From Bdellovibrionales bacterium (GTDB lineage: Bacteria; Bdellovibrionota; Bdellovibrionia; Bdellovibrionales; UBA1609): a stretch of 54,378 nucleotides of DNA. The notes beneath the pieces are model-generated. The model ran no database searches. It saw only the letters and a list, made by a program, of their open reading frames with translations, and was not told the DNA's origin. Location of the stretch: the NCBI GenBank assembly GCA_007128005.1, contig SKYF01000118.1:1-54378 (forward strand). Direction: 5' to 3'. Position 1 is the first letter of the stretch. Each line of letters starts with the position of its first letter. Of this stretch, positions 3,125-51,883 are shown one piece after another. A program made the translations under genes and the position numbers.

Positions 3125-3151
3125 TAAAGTTCTGGACTAAAGTGCCGATAC
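3125..3151 (+). promoter_or_regulatory. FliA (sigma-28) promoter for the 113-aa protein
   Basis: TAAAGTTC at 3125-3132 and GCCGATAC at 3144-3151 match the known FliA consensus TAAAGTTT-N11-GCCGATAA at 14 of 16 positions with exact spacing. By analogy with the mapped E. coli fliC start, transcription would begin about 8 nt after the -10 element, at or next to the ATG at 3159. Confidence 0.8.
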
Positions 3152-3158
3152 AGGGTCC

Positions 3159-3500
3159 ATGAAGCTGGCGTCTTTGGGGCCATTTGTGGCCCACCCAAAT
3201 CCAGAAGAGGATGGAGAGGCTGAACTTGCTGCCGAGGCCATTGCTGAGGAGCAAAAAAAGGTCCAGCCCATCCCACAACAGCGGGGCCAGGGCAGCTCCC
3301 TGGCTAGCTCTGCTTCGACTCAAAGTGAGAAAGAGCCCAAACTTATTCATCTGGAGGATTTTTTAGTACGGAAAAACAGACGGGGGGAGAAGACTGCCTC
3401 CGTTCGCATTCGTCTTAAAAAAATAAAAAAATTCAGGGCTTTTGAGGATCAAAGGGACTCGGAACTGGCTAGAGAGATGGGCTACAGCAAAAAAATCTAA
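3159..3500 (+). CDS. FliA-regulated small protein of unknown function, head of the flagellin locus
   Basis: A 113-aa soluble protein with no signal peptide or membrane helix. The N-terminal half is acidic, Ala/Glu-rich and then Gln/Ser-rich, so probably disordered. The C-terminal part (from about residue 60) is strongly basic (VRKNRRGEK, IRLKKIKKF). No family is recognised, and it does not resemble FlgM. The FliA-type promoter directly in front places it in the late flagellar regulon. If the predicted start of transcription is right, the ATG would be leaderless. An alternative is GTG at 3186, which has GGGG 6 nt upstream and would remove nine residues. Confidence 0.7.
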   Translation: MKLASLGPFVAHPNPEEDGEAELAAEAIAEEQKKVQPIPQQRGQGSSLASSASTQSEKEPKLIHLEDFLVRKNRRGEKTASVRIRLKKIKKFRAFEDQRDSELAREMGYSKKI

Positions 3501-3583: not shown

Positions 3584-3633
3584 CTGTGGGCACTCGATGC
3601 CACAGGACCTTTTTTCCGGATGTGAGGCTCCGG
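3584..3633 (+). other. structured 5' leader of flagellin 1
   Basis: Two hairpins lie between the FliA promoter and the start codon. The first is CTGTGG-(G)-CA / TGCCACAG at 3584-3605 with a CTCGA loop and one bulged G. The second is CCGGA / TCCGG at 3616-3620 and 3629-3633. Such leaders can control mRNA stability or translation; that role is inferred. Confidence 0.4.
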
Positions 3634-10054: not shown

Positions 10055-10082
10055 TAAAGGGTGAGACTGCAAGAGCCGATAG
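10055..10082 (+). promoter_or_regulatory. FliA (sigma-28) promoter of flaG-fliD
   Basis: TAAA at 10055-10058 and GCCGATAG at 10075-10082, with a gap one base longer than in the other sites. The -10 is 7 of 8. Transcription would start only about 3 nt before the flaG ATG. Confidence 0.65.
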
Positions 10083-10092
10083 GTAGGGTGAG

Positions 10093-10467
10093 ATGAATAT
10101 AAAGTCGATTAACGCCCTTATTCCATCCATTGAATCAGTCAAAGAGACAGACCCCATCCGACACGTGCGTTCAAATAAAGAAAGCAGCGCTGACCGAGAC
10201 CCCAATGGGCAGCAACAGGACAAACCACCAGAAAAGCGTCAACTGACTGACGCTGAGTTTTTAGAAGCCCTTGATAAGCTCAAGGATCTACCGGGGATAA
10301 AATCTCACAATTTGATTGTTCGGCATGAACTTCGAGGCCATAGTCGGTTTGTATTTATCGAAAGTCCAGACGGAAAGCTCGTCCGACGTCTAAGTGAGTT
10401 AGACCTTTGGGCCCTTCTTGAAGGTCAAGAGCAGACCACCGGTCACCTTTACCACAAGGCCATGTAG
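10093..10467 (+). CDS. flaG: FlaG-family flagellar protein
   Basis: A 124-aa protein with a Gln/Lys/Pro-rich disordered N-terminal half and a C-terminal domain (about 65-115) showing the FlaG pattern: a beta strand (SRFVFIESPDGKLVRRLSE) matching the family's V.I.D..G.V.R.I. Its place between a flagellin and fliD is the usual flaG position. FlaG proteins influence filament length; the exact role is not known. The C-terminal tail (QEQTTGHLYHKAM) goes beyond the typical domain. The GGGTGAG close to the ATG may lie mostly outside the mRNA if the FliA promoter is used as predicted. Confidence 0.75.
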   Translation: MNIKSINALIPSIESVKETDPIRHVRSNKESSADRDPNGQQQDKPPEKRQLTDAEFLEALDKLKDLPGIKSHNLIVRHELRGHSRFVFIESPDGKLVRRLSELDLWALLEGQEQTTGHLYHKAM

Positions 10468-40644: not shown

Positions 40645-41877
40645 GTGTTGAACTTGAATGTATATGCGCCACCACCAAGCCCTGCTCTGAGAGAAAAGGC
40701 AGATTTGGCCTTCCAAAGCTTGATGGCTAGAGGGGATCTCGGCTTTTTACAACTACCAGAAAGGTCAAAGCTCTGGTTGGCTTCCCAGAAGCGAGGAGAT
40801 GAGATCCTAGCTGCTGCGAACCAAGTGTGTGTGGTGGGAATTGGGGGCTCTAGCCTTGGAGCCAGGGCCATGGCCGATCTCAGTCTTGATCCTTCCAGTA
40901 TTCTTTTCTTTGACTCACCGGACCCCAAAAGATTTCTGCTTCAGTGGGGCCACCTAAAGGATCTGTCCCAAGTTCACTGGCTTTGGGTTTCCAAAAGTGG
41001 GTCGACTTTGGAGACACTTTCCCTTCTACAGATAGTGCTCCAGCATTACAAACAGAGAGGGTTGTGTTTGGCATCCCAAAGCACAGTGATTGTTGATCGC
41101 AAGCAAAGTCCTCTGGCTTCTTGGGCCGCCCAAGAGAAAGTTGTCTGCTTAGATATTCCTGAAGATGTGGGAGGAAGGTTTTCAGCCTTAACTCCCGCGG
41201 GACTGCTGCCAGCTCGGCTGCTGGGCTGGGACCTGGATGATCTGAGAAAAGGAGCTTTGTGGGGCCGAGAGCAAAGGGAGTTAATCGGTCTGCTCGCAGC
41301 CCTCAGTTTAGAGAGCTTTCAGAGGCAGGAGTGGGTCACTCTTATGTGGGCCTATGGGGATGCCTTGATGTCTTCGGCTTATTGGTGGCAGCAGCTTTGG
41401 TCAGAGTCGCTAGCCAAGGCCCACAGTCGGCTTGGTCAAGCTGCTCCTCGCGTGAGCAGTCCTTTTGTTCTACAGGGGGTTCAAGATCAACACTCTCTCT
41501 TGCAGCAGGTGATGGAAGGAGAGCGGGACAAGTTTATCTGGTTTTTAAGTTTTGAAAAATCGGGGCCCTCGGCCGACGACCTAAAGATTGAGAACATGGA
41601 CTATGACTGGGGCTGGCCCTTGGTCAAGAGATCCTTAAGCGATATTTTTGAGGCAGAGCGGATGGCCACTCAGACAGCCCTTAAGGACCAGGGGGTGAGC
41701 CTTCTGGATTTAAAATTGTCAGACTCATCGCCCGCCAGCTTTGGGGCTTATGTCATGGTGATGGAAATGCTTATTGGCGTGCTAGGAGAACTGCTCGAAA
41801 TCAATGCCTTTGATCAACCCGGGGTCGAGTCTGGAAAGAAAATAGTTCGTAAAATTCTTGCGAAGCCTGTTGTCTGA
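40645..41877 (+). CDS. pgi: glucose-6-phosphate isomerase, short form
   Basis: Interconverts glucose 6-phosphate and fructose 6-phosphate. At 410 aa it is shorter than most bacterial enzymes (about 440-550). Motifs: VVGIGGSSLGARAMADL, VSKSGSTLETLSLL, the DVGGRFSALTPAGLLP region, and QDQHSLLQQVMEG. GTG start with AAGGGGAG about 9 nt upstream. Confidence 0.92.
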   Translation: MLNLNVYAPPPSPALREKADLAFQSLMARGDLGFLQLPERSKLWLASQKRGDEILAAANQVCVVGIGGSSLGARAMADLSLDPSSILFFDSPDPKRFLLQWGHLKDLSQVHWLWVSKSGSTLETLSLLQIVLQHYKQRGLCLASQSTVIVDRKQSPLASWAAQEKVVCLDIPEDVGGRFSALTPAGLLPARLLGWDLDDLRKGALWGREQRELIGLLAALSLESFQRQEWVTLMWAYGDALMSSAYWWQQLWSESLAKAHSRLGQAAPRVSSPFVLQGVQDQHSLLQQVMEGERDKFIWFLSFEKSGPSADDLKIENMDYDWGWPLVKRSLSDIFEAERMATQTALKDQGVSLLDLKLSDSSPASFGAYVMVMEMLIGVLGELLEINAFDQPGVESGKKIVRKILAKPVV

Positions 41878-41905
41878 GAGGAAAGAGGCCGATAGAATTA
41901 TAGAG

Positions 41906-42835
41906 ATGTCTGACAACGATGAAGATGTATCAGAAAAAACCAGTATTATTCAGAGTGAGACCTTTAAGCTTCGACTGGCTGAGGCAGGTCAGGCTCCCCC
42001 TTGTCTGATTCTGCTGGTTGGACCCGCTCAGCTAGTGGGGCGTCAGTGGCCTATTGAGGACACGGATCGGATTTTAGGTCGAGCACCGAGCAGTCATATT
42101 TTTGTGGATGACAAAAGTGTCAGTAAGTCTCACGCTAAAATCATTTTAGCAGGGGGAGATGTTTCGATCATAGACCTAGAGTCTACCAATAGAACAGTTG
42201 TCAACGGGAAGCTGGCCGAACCCTTAAATCCCATCACGTTGAGTAATAATGACCAAATCAAAACGGGAAATGTGATCTTTAAATTTCTAGAGAGAGGCAA
42301 TATTGAGACCGTGTCCACCGCGCAGACATTTGATCGCAGTCAGACAGATGCCCTGACAGGGATTGCCAACCGGGGGGCCTTAGAGAGTAAAGGTCCTGAG
42401 TTATTTAAGCGCTCAGATCTTTTGGGAATACCTTTAAGTCTCATTGCCTTTGATATTGATCACTTCAAACCGGTCAATGATACCCATGGTCATCTGGCGG
42501 GCGATCATGTGCTTAAAGAAATTGCCAAGATAGTGAGAGATAAACTCATTCGTGAAAACGATTTTTTTGCACGGACGGGAGGCGAAGAGTTCACTCTCTT
42601 GCTCCTGGGATCCAATCTGCAAACTGCAAGTGATGTGGCCGAGAGGATTCGCCAGACCATTGAATCTCACCAATTCGTCTTTGAAGGGACTCAGATTCCA
42701 ATTACCATTTCTTGTGGGGTGACCATCAAAAACCCCCAGGACAAGACTTGGGTGGAGGTCTACGAGCGAGCCGATCGGGCTCTCTATGAATCTAAGAACT
42801 CCGGGCGAAACCGAGTCACAGTTTACTCCAGTTAG
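41906..42835 (+). CDS. FHA-GGDEF diguanylate cyclase, DgcB-like
   Basis: A 309-aa protein: a short N-terminal tail with an acidic stretch and Thr12 (DNDEDVSEKTSII), an FHA domain (about 40-135: DRILGRAPSSHIFVDDKSVSKSHAKI, STNRTVVNG), then a GGDEF domain (about 155-308) with TDALTGIANRGAL, FDIDHFKPVND, RENDFFARTGGEEF (I site and active GGEEF). This arrangement is that of Bdellovibrio DgcB, in which a phosphorylated Thr in the N-terminal tail is read by the FHA domain and which is needed for prey entry. Orthology is inferred. ATG 41906 starts inside the end of no other gene and lies 29 nt after pgi. Confidence 0.9.
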   Translation: MSDNDEDVSEKTSIIQSETFKLRLAEAGQAPPCLILLVGPAQLVGRQWPIEDTDRILGRAPSSHIFVDDKSVSKSHAKIILAGGDVSIIDLESTNRTVVNGKLAEPLNPITLSNNDQIKTGNVIFKFLERGNIETVSTAQTFDRSQTDALTGIANRGALESKGPELFKRSDLLGIPLSLIAFDIDHFKPVNDTHGHLAGDHVLKEIAKIVRDKLIRENDFFARTGGEEFTLLLLGSNLQTASDVAERIRQTIESHQFVFEGTQIPITISCGVTIKNPQDKTWVEVYERADRALYESKNSGRNRVTVYSS

Positions 42836-45642: not shown

Positions 45643-46452
45643 TCAAGGCGCTGATGCAAAGACAGGGCTTAGGATGAGGACAAACTGATATTTGAGGCGA
45701 ATGTAGCCATCTTCCTTGACCATTTCTTGAGGAGGGTTGTTGAAGGGGGCACTATTGTGAAGGGCATGGATGGCTGCCAAATCAATGCTGCGATAACCAG
45801 AGCTTTTCTGGAGAGTGATCTCTTCAATAGCACCCTCTGGAGAGAGAATGACTTCGATCACTGAACTCAGCTCCCTTAGCAAGCTCGATCGCGTGAGTTC
45901 GGGGCCCAGTTGCGCAGTGGCAAGGCGCAGTTGAGGGACCCATCGGTTGAGGATCTGCTCATTGATGCGCCTAAAAAAACTATAGTAGCTGAATTGATCC
46001 GAGTTCAAAGCCGTAAAGTGACCCTGTCTGACGCCCGGGATGAAGTCGGCAACTTGAGGCTTAAAGACTCCAGATCCAGAAAATCCTGTCTTAGACTCTG
46101 AAGATGAACTGGGACTGCTCTGAGGGGATTCCAAGGGACCTGCTTGAATGAGCTCTTCTCTCACCCGCCGGGTTTGACGAGAGAGTCTTCGCACCTCCTT
46201 AAGGAGAGCTTCCGCAAGATCCTTATCATCCAACTCAACCTCTGGAGGGGGCTGGGTGTCAGCGACAATCGTCTTGGGGCCTGAGGTCTCAGAGGGCTCC
46301 CGCCACTCAAACTCCACTTGAGTTTCTGGTTTCAGCATGGGCCCCTCTTGGCCTTGGGGAAGGGAAATCAAAATCAGTACAGTGAGCCCATGCAGTGCCA
46401 GGCTCAGTAAAAGAGCCAGAAAGCTGCGATCTTGATGATGGGGGTGGGGCAT
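45643..46452 (-). CDS. TonB/TolA-like energy-transducing protein
   Basis: A 269-aa protein with an N-terminal membrane anchor (SFLALLLSLALHGLTVLILI), a Pro/Glu/Ser-rich linker, and a C-terminal domain (about 150-260) with FRRINEQILNRWVP, VIEVILSPEGAIEEITLQKSSGYRSID, AAIHALHNSAPFNNPP. That is the TonB/TolA C-terminal pattern. The His at the membrane (LALHGL) matches TonB and TolA anchors. No exbB/exbD or tolQ/tolR lies nearby. GGGAG 7 nt before the ATG. Confidence 0.85.
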   Translation of the reverse strand: MPHPHHQDRSFLALLLSLALHGLTVLILISLPQGQEGPMLKPETQVEFEWREPSETSGPKTIVADTQPPPEVELDDKDLAEALLKEVRRLSRQTRRVREELIQAGPLESPQSSPSSSSESKTGFSGSGVFKPQVADFIPGVRQGHFTALNSDQFSYYSFFRRINEQILNRWVPQLRLATAQLGPELTRSSLLRELSSVIEVILSPEGAIEEITLQKSSGYRSIDLAAIHALHNSAPFNNPPQEMVKEDGYIRLKYQFVLILSPVFASAP

Positions 46453-46567
46453 GTAGATCTCCCTTCATTGAGCACTATAGACACTTCAATTAAAAATAGC
46501 TAGATCCTTCAGGTGAAGAAAAAATATAAGTAGTTTCAATATCTTAACGGATCGCATAAAAAAATTT

Positions 46568-46594
46568 AAAGTTGAGGGGAAATCTGCCGATACC
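46568..46594 (+). promoter_or_regulatory. FliA (sigma-28) promoter of the PilZ gene
   Basis: TAAAGTTG at 46568-46575 and GCCGATAC at 46587-46594, 11-nt gap: 14 of 16 consensus positions, as good as the flagellin promoters. The leader to the GTG at 46638 would be about 36 nt and contains GGGGAGGG. Confidence 0.8.
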
Positions 46595-46637
46595 TCTTTA
46601 AGGACGCCAGGTCCAACACTTTTGGGGAGGGTAGGCT

Positions 46638-47183
46638 GTGAGTAAGAACAATGTCATTGATCTATTTTCACGTCAGAGGATCAAGGGGCCCGTCAAGACG
46701 AGTCCAGCAAAAAAGCAATCCAAAAGGCAAAAACCAAAAGGCAATTCAGGGGTTTTGGACCTGACTCAAAGGCGTCAGGATCTGATCAATGAAGAGCGGC
46801 GCCAAGTCAAAAGAACCATTTTAACAGAGTTCATTGGAGCCTTTGCGGTGGTTCCTAAAAAGGGCCTGATAAAGGTGTCCATCTCGGATATTTCAGATCA
46901 GGGGCTTGCCTTTGATCTGAGCGAGGACATGGGTGAGTTTCGCTTAGGAGAAGAAGTGGCTATGAGGGTTTATTTGAACCACAAGACCTATTTTCCTTTT
47001 GTCGTTAGAATCCAGAATGTTCGCAAGGAAGAGCAGGAACAGGTGCAGCGTCATGGAGCTCACTTTTCAAAAGACACTGTGAATGAGGAAGCCCTCCGAC
47101 ATTTTGTCAAGTTTATTGAGAGTGTCAGCGCCTCTTTAGAGACCGATGGGGGCGATATTATGGTCTCCAACTTAGGTCGCTGA
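46638..47183 (+). CDS. PilZ-domain protein under FliA control
   Basis: A 181-aa soluble protein. The N-terminal 50 residues are basic (KKQSKRQKPKG), then a PilZ domain (about 55-165) with the c-di-GMP signature: ERRQVKRTIL (Arg pair) and VSISDISDQGLAFDL (D-x-S-x-x-G). GTG start after GGGGAGGG. With a FliA promoter in front and no operon partner, it is a candidate flagellar brake or c-di-GMP receptor acting on motility, in the manner of YcgR, but it lacks the YcgR-N domain. Confidence 0.85.
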   Translation: MSKNNVIDLFSRQRIKGPVKTSPAKKQSKRQKPKGNSGVLDLTQRRQDLINEERRQVKRTILTEFIGAFAVVPKKGLIKVSISDISDQGLAFDLSEDMGEFRLGEEVAMRVYLNHKTYFPFVVRIQNVRKEEQEQVQRHGAHFSKDTVNEEALRHFVKFIESVSASLETDGGDIMVSNLGR

Positions 47184-47241: not shown

Positions 47242-48570
47242 ATGACTTTTATGAGCCGCTGCGAACGTAAAATCATTCTTGATACCAACGTGATACTCTT
47301 TGACGCTCTTGCGATTACCAAGTTTCGAGATGCCGATATCTTCGTCCCCTTTTCGGTGATTGAGGAGGTGGATCGCTTTAAGAGAGACTTGGGTGAGAAT
47401 GGGCGCAACGCGCGTCATTTTAGTCGTTTTATTGATGTTTTGCGCGAGCAGGGAGCTTTGGCCGAAGGTGTTCCTCTGGAGAAGACGCAGAGTTATTTTT
47501 ATGTGAATACGGACATGCACTTTTCGGGACTGCCTCAGGAGCTCGATCTTCACAAGGCGGACAACCGGATTTTGGCCACGGCCCTGGCTTTGAAAAATGA
47601 GTACCCCCAGGCACAAGTGGAGCTCATCACTAAGGACATTAACCTGCGGATCAAAGCAGATGTCTTTGGTATTGAGGCCAACGACTATGATCCTGAAGAC
47701 ACTCATTTTGAAGATATGTACACAGGGCTGAAAGAAGTGGATGTAGATCCAGATGCCATTGATCGATTCTATCGCGAGAAGTCAGTGGTCATGGAAGAAG
47801 GAGTGCGCCTCCTCGCCAATCAGTACATTATTTTAAAAGACCGCACCAATCCCAACCACAGTGCCATTGGTCGCTTCAGTGAGCGAGACAATAAGGTGGT
47901 TCCATTGATTTGCCCCACAGAAAGCATTTGGGGAATTCACCCCCGCAATGTGGAGCAGAGTTTTGCCTTGGACTGTTTGCTCAACGATGAAATTCTGTTC
48001 GTCTCTCTGGTGGGCAAAGCGGGAACAGGGAAGACTTTGATGGCACTTGCTGCGGGCCTTTACAAAACTCTTGACGAGGGAACCTTTAAGCGGCTTTTGG
48101 TCAGTCGCCCCATCTTCCCCATGGGTAGGGACATTGGCTATTTGCCCGGAGATGTGGAGCAGAAACTCAACCCCTGGATGCAGCCCATATTTGACAACGT
48201 GGAGTTCCTTATGGGTGCAGACAAGAAGGCCGCAGGACGGGCTCAGGAGCTCATCAACCAGGGCATGCTCAACATAGAGCCGTTAACTTATATCAGAGGG
48301 CGAAGTATACCCAATCAGTTCCTGATTGTCGATGAGGCTCAGAACCTGACTCCCCATGAGATCAAAACCATTGTCACTCGAGCTGGGCAGAACACCAAAG
48401 TGGTGCTGACAGGGGATTGCTACCAAATTGACAACCCCTATGTGGACTCGGCCAGCAGTGGTTTGACCTATTCGGTGGAGCGGTTTAAGGGGCAGAGCAT
48501 TTCAGCTCATGTCACTCTGTCAAAAGGTGAGCGCTCGGAATTAGCAGAGCTGGCTGCGAATATCCTCTAA
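47242..48570 (+). CDS. PhoH-like protein with N-terminal PIN domain
   Basis: A 442-aa PhoH2-type protein. PIN domain (about 8-140): KIILDTNVILFD, VIEEVDRF, LVLITKD-type EVEL/LITKDINLRIKA acid residues. PhoH ATPase domain (about 235-440): Walker A GKAGTGKTL (about 257), FLIVDEAQNLTP (Walker B) and VLTGDCYQID. PIN-PhoH proteins are reported to be RNA helicase/nucleases. GGAGG before the ATG. Confidence 0.92.
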   Translation: MTFMSRCERKIILDTNVILFDALAITKFRDADIFVPFSVIEEVDRFKRDLGENGRNARHFSRFIDVLREQGALAEGVPLEKTQSYFYVNTDMHFSGLPQELDLHKADNRILATALALKNEYPQAQVELITKDINLRIKADVFGIEANDYDPEDTHFEDMYTGLKEVDVDPDAIDRFYREKSVVMEEGVRLLANQYIILKDRTNPNHSAIGRFSERDNKVVPLICPTESIWGIHPRNVEQSFALDCLLNDEILFVSLVGKAGTGKTLMALAAGLYKTLDEGTFKRLLVSRPIFPMGRDIGYLPGDVEQKLNPWMQPIFDNVEFLMGADKKAAGRAQELINQGMLNIEPLTYIRGRSIPNQFLIVDEAQNLTPHEIKTIVTRAGQNTKVVLTGDCYQIDNPYVDSASSGLTYSVERFKGQSISAHVTLSKGERSELAELAANIL

Positions 48571-50758: not shown

Positions 50759-51883
50759 GTGAGTCAAACCAGCGACGAACTTCAAGAGAGTGTCTTTCAG
50801 AATGCGATCAAAAACTTCTTAGCTCCCATAGCTCCATTTCTGGATGACGAAAAGGTCAGTGAAGTGATGATCAACGGACCCAATGATATATGGATCGAGG
50901 TGGGGGGCAAAATCCAGCGGGCCCAGGCTAGCTTCGCAGATGAGGATTCACTCAGAGCTGCAGTCAATAACATTGCCCAGAGTGTTGGCCGCAGAATAAA
51001 CGATGACGAGCCCAGGCTGGATGCACGACTGCCCAATGGCTATCGAATTCATGCTGTTATACCCCCTTGTGCTCGAAACGGCACAACGGTGGCCATACGC
51101 AAGTTTGCAAAGGTCCAGATGACTTTTAAGGATTATATCCGACTGGGTGCCATGACTGCAGATGCGGCCCAGTTCCTTGATATCTGTATGAAGCTTGGCA
51201 AGAACATTCTGGTGAGTGGGGGAACAGGCTCGGGAAAGACCACCCTTCTGAGTGTGCTGTGCAACCGCATTCCCACCGGTCAGCGAGTCATAGTGATCGA
51301 GGATTCAAGTGAACTGCAGATGAGTTATGAGCATGTGGTGTTCTTTGAAACCCGTATGCCCGATGAGATGGGAAAGGGAGAGGTGAGCATTCGAGACCTG
51401 CTCAAGAGCTCGCTTCGACTGCGTCCGGATCGCATCATTGTAGGGGAGGTGCGTGGAGTCGAGGCCCTGGAGTTGATTCAGGCCATGAACACCGGCCATA
51501 AGGGATGCTTGGGAACGATTCATGCCAACTCAGCCTCAGATGCCTTGGTGCGTTTGGAGGCCCTGGCGCAAGGAGGGGATGGTCAACTCAGCGAGCGGGC
51601 TCTCCGACAGCAGGTGGCCTCTGCAATAGATCTTGTGGTGCAGATTTCTCGCTACTCGGACGGCTCAAGGCGCTTAGCGTCAATTCATGAGGTCTTAGGC
51701 TTTCAAGCCGACGGAACTTACCATTCAGAGCCTATTTATCAGATGGGTCGCCTCTTAAAAACTGCCGAGGGTCGTCTTCAGGGACAGATTCAGCCGACCG
51801 GGACCCTGCCTTCTTTTGTGGACGAAATCGAGGACAATCAAATTCCCTTTCCTCGCAGTAAATTTTCCATTGTGTTGCCCTAG
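50759..51883 (+). CDS. cpaF: CpaF/TadA-type secretion ATPase
   Basis: A 374-aa type II/IV secretion ATPase of the Tad pilus class. N-terminal domain with [33 protein letters not shown]; Walker [12 protein letters not shown] (about 153), Asp box VIEDSSELQ, Walker [16 protein letters not shown], His box [15 protein letters not shown] start 50759. It normally powers pilus assembly, but no other Tad genes are in the window. The Arg/Gln-rich C-terminal tail is a usual variation. Confidence 0.93.

Follow-up and report, generated by a model that had tools for sequence, protein, structure and literature searches.

A PilZ protein with a conserved FliA promoter as a probable c-di-GMP receptor of the attack phase in Bdellovibrionota

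A gene for a 181-residue PilZ protein (46638–47183, plus strand, GTG start) follows a FliA (sigma28) promoter sequence that is conserved before its orthologs. Its product fairly likely serves as a cytoplasmic receptor for c-di-GMP while the cells swim freely in the attack phase; FliA would transcribe the gene, and the protein would change swimming upon binding c-di-GMP. The window, which is the whole stretch of 54,378 nucleotides that was analyzed, belongs to a bacterium of the Bdellovibrionota with a genome of 2.57 Mb in 212 contigs. New are the class-wide conservation of the promoter, the near-universal single-copy occurrence of the gene, its fixed link to dgcB, its adjacency to phoH and its persistence in some aflagellate lineages, as well as the conserved short N- and C-terminal motifs that flank a variable linker.

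Architecture of the PilZ protein

A ribosome-binding site read from the sequence (GGGGAGGG, 46624–46631, plus strand) lies 6 nt ahead of the GTG, and a search for an RNA element in the leader of the gene found none. The Pfam PilZ profile scores 34.5 bits (E-value 2.7e-8) against a curated cut-off of 22.5, and the domain, which is delimited by Pfam, alignment and fold match, spans 46794–47108. Both parts of the c-di-GMP signature named in the original prediction are intact, RxxxR as R55–R59 (RQVKR) and DxSxxG as D84–G89 (DISDQG). These motifs are retained in the orthologs, the residues R55, R59, D84 and G89 even in distant homologs, and they mark the protein as a predicted c-di-GMP receptor, one of 12 PilZ matches in the source genome.

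In the orthologs, a short N-terminal motif leads into a linker that differs in length and charge from one protein to the next; the PilZ domain follows, and the C-terminal part consists of a helix and a conserved D-x-GD tail. In the protein described here, the N-terminal motif (MSKNNVIDLFSR, 46638–46673) has a V-I-D-[LIF] core that is conserved in an alignment of 17 orthologs, and the linker (46674–46754), variable in the alignment and modeled with low confidence, is basic. The helix (residues 150–169) and the conserved tail ETDGGDIMVSN, both taken from the alignment and the model, are encoded at 47085–47183. The basic N-terminus that had first been proposed as a hallmark is real in this protein, but it belongs to the variable linker and is not conserved, and its standing as a hallmark is not supported; what is conserved is the V-I-D-type motif and the C-terminal tail.

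The predicted structure has a mean pLDDT of 72.6 with core blocks above 90, confidence being limited to the core, and the residues ahead of the PilZ domain are mostly of low confidence. The modeled fold matches PP4397/FlgZ, MotI/DgrA, VCA0042 and YcgR, with PP4397/FlgZ and MotI as the top structural matches, and a search for sequence relatives in the PDB found none. The PilZ fold is shared with the two-domain brakes YcgR, FlgZ and MotI, but the protein does not belong among them, since the YcgR-N domain, whose absence had been foreseen, has no match in the Pfam search, which found no second domain beside PilZ. PilZ-only regulators of the motor are known, namely MotL of Shewanella putrefaciens, DgrA of Caulobacter and McrA of Sinorhizobium (PMC8203827), and have in common with the protein a PilZ domain without YcgR-N and, as predicted here, control of motility. 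The present protein differs from them by its additional N-terminal motif, linker and conserved C-terminal tail, and the likeness is drawn without a claim of orthology.

A FliA-type promoter conserved before the orthologs

The promoter sequence TAAAGTTGAGGGGAAATCTGCCGATA (46567–46592, plus strand), composed of the −35 box TAAAGTT and the −10 box GCCGATA at their usual spacing, is an exact match to the sigma28 consensus and is separated from the GTG by 45 nt. It is the TAAAGTTG-N11-GCCGATAC element of the original prediction, which proved correct as described, although the site begins one base further upstream. Within the window, a 26-base pattern allowing up to two mismatches gave 12 matches against 2.8 expected, a number reached in none of 100 shuffles; the sites at 3125, 3529 and 4710 fall in the flagellin gene region, where the latter two precede flagellin genes (at 3586 and 4925). 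Genome-wide, a strict pattern gave 8 matches as compared with 0 for the reversed control, and the combination of TMAAGTT and CCGATA at fixed spacing occurs twice in the source genome, both times within the window. FliA itself is encoded in this genome with a score above the cut-off (G000:C125, 1.9e-80).

Of the 53 distinct upstream regions collected from orthologs, 49 have a FliA site, whereas shuffled sequences averaged 0.46 and the opposite strand gave 0. The resulting consensus is TAAAGTTGARAC-N7-GCCGATA. The four regions without a clear site include that of the aflagellate genome G014. Because of this conservation, control of the PilZ gene by FliA is strongly predicted.

In B. bacteriovorus, 92 of the 140 attack-phase promoters that have been mapped contain the FliA motif, and FliA has been proposed to be the global regulator of the attack phase (PMC3627812). 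A deletion of Bdellovibrio FliA was not obtainable, and in E. coli the factor activates TAD and flagellin promoters (PMC5430801). The PilZ promoter fits the published consensus and the gene class of this regulon, whereas the assignment of the gene to it is made from sequence. Since FliA has been described in print as a global regulator of the attack phase in Bdellovibrionota, a FliA promoter remote from flagellar genes is to be expected and says "attack phase" rather than "flagellum"; the significance initially attached to the distance from the flagellar cluster is not supported.

The ortholog in B. bacteriovorus HD100

The best relative in B. bacteriovorus HD100 is 61% identical over 141 residues and shares its neighbors and promoter with the PilZ gene of the window, which places it in the same ortholog group. 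The FliA site, the neighboring genes (TonB, PhoH and an upstream DgcB) and the protein motifs are all the same; TMAAGTT with CCGATA at fixed spacing occurs three times in the HD100 genome, once as the site of this ortholog, TAAAGTTGAAACACATTCTGCCGATA. The two loci differ in the linker, which is longer and basic here, and in the distance to dgcB, which is 3.8 kb here and 15 kb in HD100. The HD100 gene is located at 721,317–721,826 (721.3 kb). As it is the sole one of about 18 PilZ genes to lie between 598 and 953 kb, between the DgcB gene bd0742 (705,116–706,033) and a PilZ gene at 953 kb that fits Bd1007, it is very probably Bd0760, a locus tag inferred from position and uniqueness. For the MIDAS gene Bd0767, considered as a further position anchor, Pfam gave no identification in two candidate ORFs.

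A 2024 paper presents bd0760 and bd1007 as homologs of the YcgR flagellar-brake c-di-GMP effector that control attack-phase swimming, and does so second hand, by citing Sathyamoorthy 2021 (PMC11323537). The PilZ gene of the window is thus the ortholog of a gene that, as very probably Bd0760, has already been discussed in the literature, and the motility role foreseen for it gains support from this paper. The suggestion of a hitherto unrecognized kind of effector, on the other hand, is not supported, both because the probable Bd0760 is named there as a brake homolog (PMC11323537) and because MotL, DgrA and McrA are known (PMC8203827).

Occurrence in flagellate and aflagellate genomes

Nearly all genomes of the class carry a single copy of the PilZ gene. 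Flagellin is missing from 14 of the 119 genomes, and FlhA is absent from all 14. The PilZ gene is absent from nine of these aflagellate genomes and from 2 of the 105 flagellate ones; Fisher's test gives p of about 1e-8, but the losses are clustered on the tree, and a sign test over the tree is not significant. On the FliA tree, which is a weakly resolved single-gene tree with long branches, the losses fall mainly in two reduced groups and lend no independent support to a link with the flagellum. The association of gene losses was ruled out as proof of a flagellar role on account of the clustering and the sign test, and a strict tie between gene and flagellum was ruled out as the sole rule by the five aflagellate genomes that retain the gene. 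The gene is therefore not strictly flagellum-bound and may have a role other than a flagellar one.

FliA scores above the family cut-off in 12 of the 14 aflagellate genomes (G014, G107, G177, G185, G212, G225, G237, G249, G275, G296, G297 and G305), which fits a regulator that outlives the flagellum. At least three of the five aflagellate genomes that keep the PilZ gene have a FliA-like site before it: the site is perfect in G249, has a spacing longer by one base in G107 and G185, is degenerate in G303 and was not seen upstream of the gene in G014. In G303 (L032, L097), 169 bp separate the end of dgcB from pilZ, and given this gap and the degenerate FliA site, co-transcription of both genes is possible in this genome. 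Aflagellate genomes that have both the PilZ gene and FliA offer a direct route to ask about the roles of FliA and c-di-GMP without a flagellum.

Proposed function and gene neighborhood

In the attack-phase swimming model, FliA would transcribe the PilZ gene along with flagellins and other attack-phase genes; rising c-di-GMP would be bound by the PilZ domain, and the protein would then alter swimming. Contact with the motor or stator, the putative target, would most likely be made through the C-terminal helix and tail or the N-terminal motif, in the manner of PilZ-type brakes. This reading is supported by the site in 49 of 53 upstream regions, FliA in the genome, the receptor motifs, the brake-like fold, the cited role of Bd0760 and the distribution of losses (9/14 vs. 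2/105), and it is weakened by the five aflagellate keepers, at least three of them with a FliA-like site, the clustering of losses on the tree and the lack of a sequence match in the PDB. The gene is single-copy and near-universal, almost always has a FliA site before it and invariably lies downstream of dgcB; it is therefore a good candidate for a receptor that joins prey-contact or starvation signals to swimming. To our knowledge, few partners of the HD100 PilZ genes are known.

The protein might instead be an effector that serves mainly non-flagellar purposes in the attack phase, a possibility that can be entertained only tentatively: it would sense the c-di-GMP that DgcB produces upon contact with prey and act on invasion, gliding or pole machinery, and changes in swimming would be a side effect. 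The DgcB ortholog (FHA-GGDEF, 41858–42835, plus strand) is a conserved neighbor: in all 77 genomes that carry both genes on one contig, it lies upstream of the PilZ gene on the same strand, at distances of 0.17–24 kb that are smallest in aflagellate genomes, and conserved order is no proof of a pathway. DgcB is required for prey invasion and is thought to have further targets besides CdgA (PMC6733907), and the five genomes that keep the PilZ gene without flagellin and FlhA, among them G249 with its perfect FliA site, point the same way. However, conservation of gene order is not function, and here the entire neighborhood is conserved, the divergent gene for a TonB-family protein (45643–46452, minus strand) being one conserved neighbor and the divergent TonB, outer-membrane and lipoprotein genes being mostly retained around the orthologs. 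Moreover, the shrinkage of genomes draws genes nearer to one another, and a swimming role has been claimed in print for Bd0760 (PMC11323537). In a broader version, which is likewise conceivable but rather unlikely, the receptor would serve the attack phase throughout the class, be coupled to DgcB and have a non-flagellar essential task, and FliA would still control it in lineages without a flagellum. The same conserved neighborhood includes a gene for a CpaF/TadA-type secretion ATPase at 50759–51883.

Another explanation, which is improbable, places the PilZ and PhoH2 genes in one attack-phase operon in which the PilZ protein controls PhoH2 and not motility. PhoH2 is predicted to be an RNA helicase that carries a PIN domain. 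The phoH2-type gene (47242–48570, plus strand) begins 58 nt downstream of the PilZ gene, and phoH adjoins pilZ in 16 of 16 first-found ortholog loci. At this locus, neither a terminator-like nor a plus-strand sigma70-like site was found in the gap, and since no terminator-like site separates the genes, co-transcription is possible. Against control of PhoH2 stand the gap between the pilZ and phoH matches, which reaches about 290 nt in relatives, the fact that no PilZ–PhoH contact is known and the weakness of adjacency as evidence by itself.

That the promoter-like sequence arose by chance or is read by a different sigma factor is very improbable, for although a consensus match alone is no proof and four upstream regions, aflagellate G014 among them, have no clear site, the exact sigma28 consensus, the FliA gene in the genome and the excess over shuffles (49/53 vs. 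0.46) speak against it, and chance was ruled out by the genome-wide control and the footprint over the orthologs.

Two further sites in the window precede short ORFs for which Pfam gave no match. A perfect sigma28 site (3125–3150) lies 9 nt before a 113-residue ORF (3159–3500) that adjoins the flagellin genes, and a sigma28-like site (10055–10081) lies 12 nt before a 124-residue ORF (10093–10467) in the flagellin/FliS region. An origin of the FliA site before the PilZ gene as an old phylum-wide trait was ruled out, as distant homologs outside the class mostly lack it. In other classes of the phylum (L068–L091), these are single PilZ homologs that nevertheless retain an N-terminal V-V/I-D-F motif and a C-terminal D-K-G-E/D tail.
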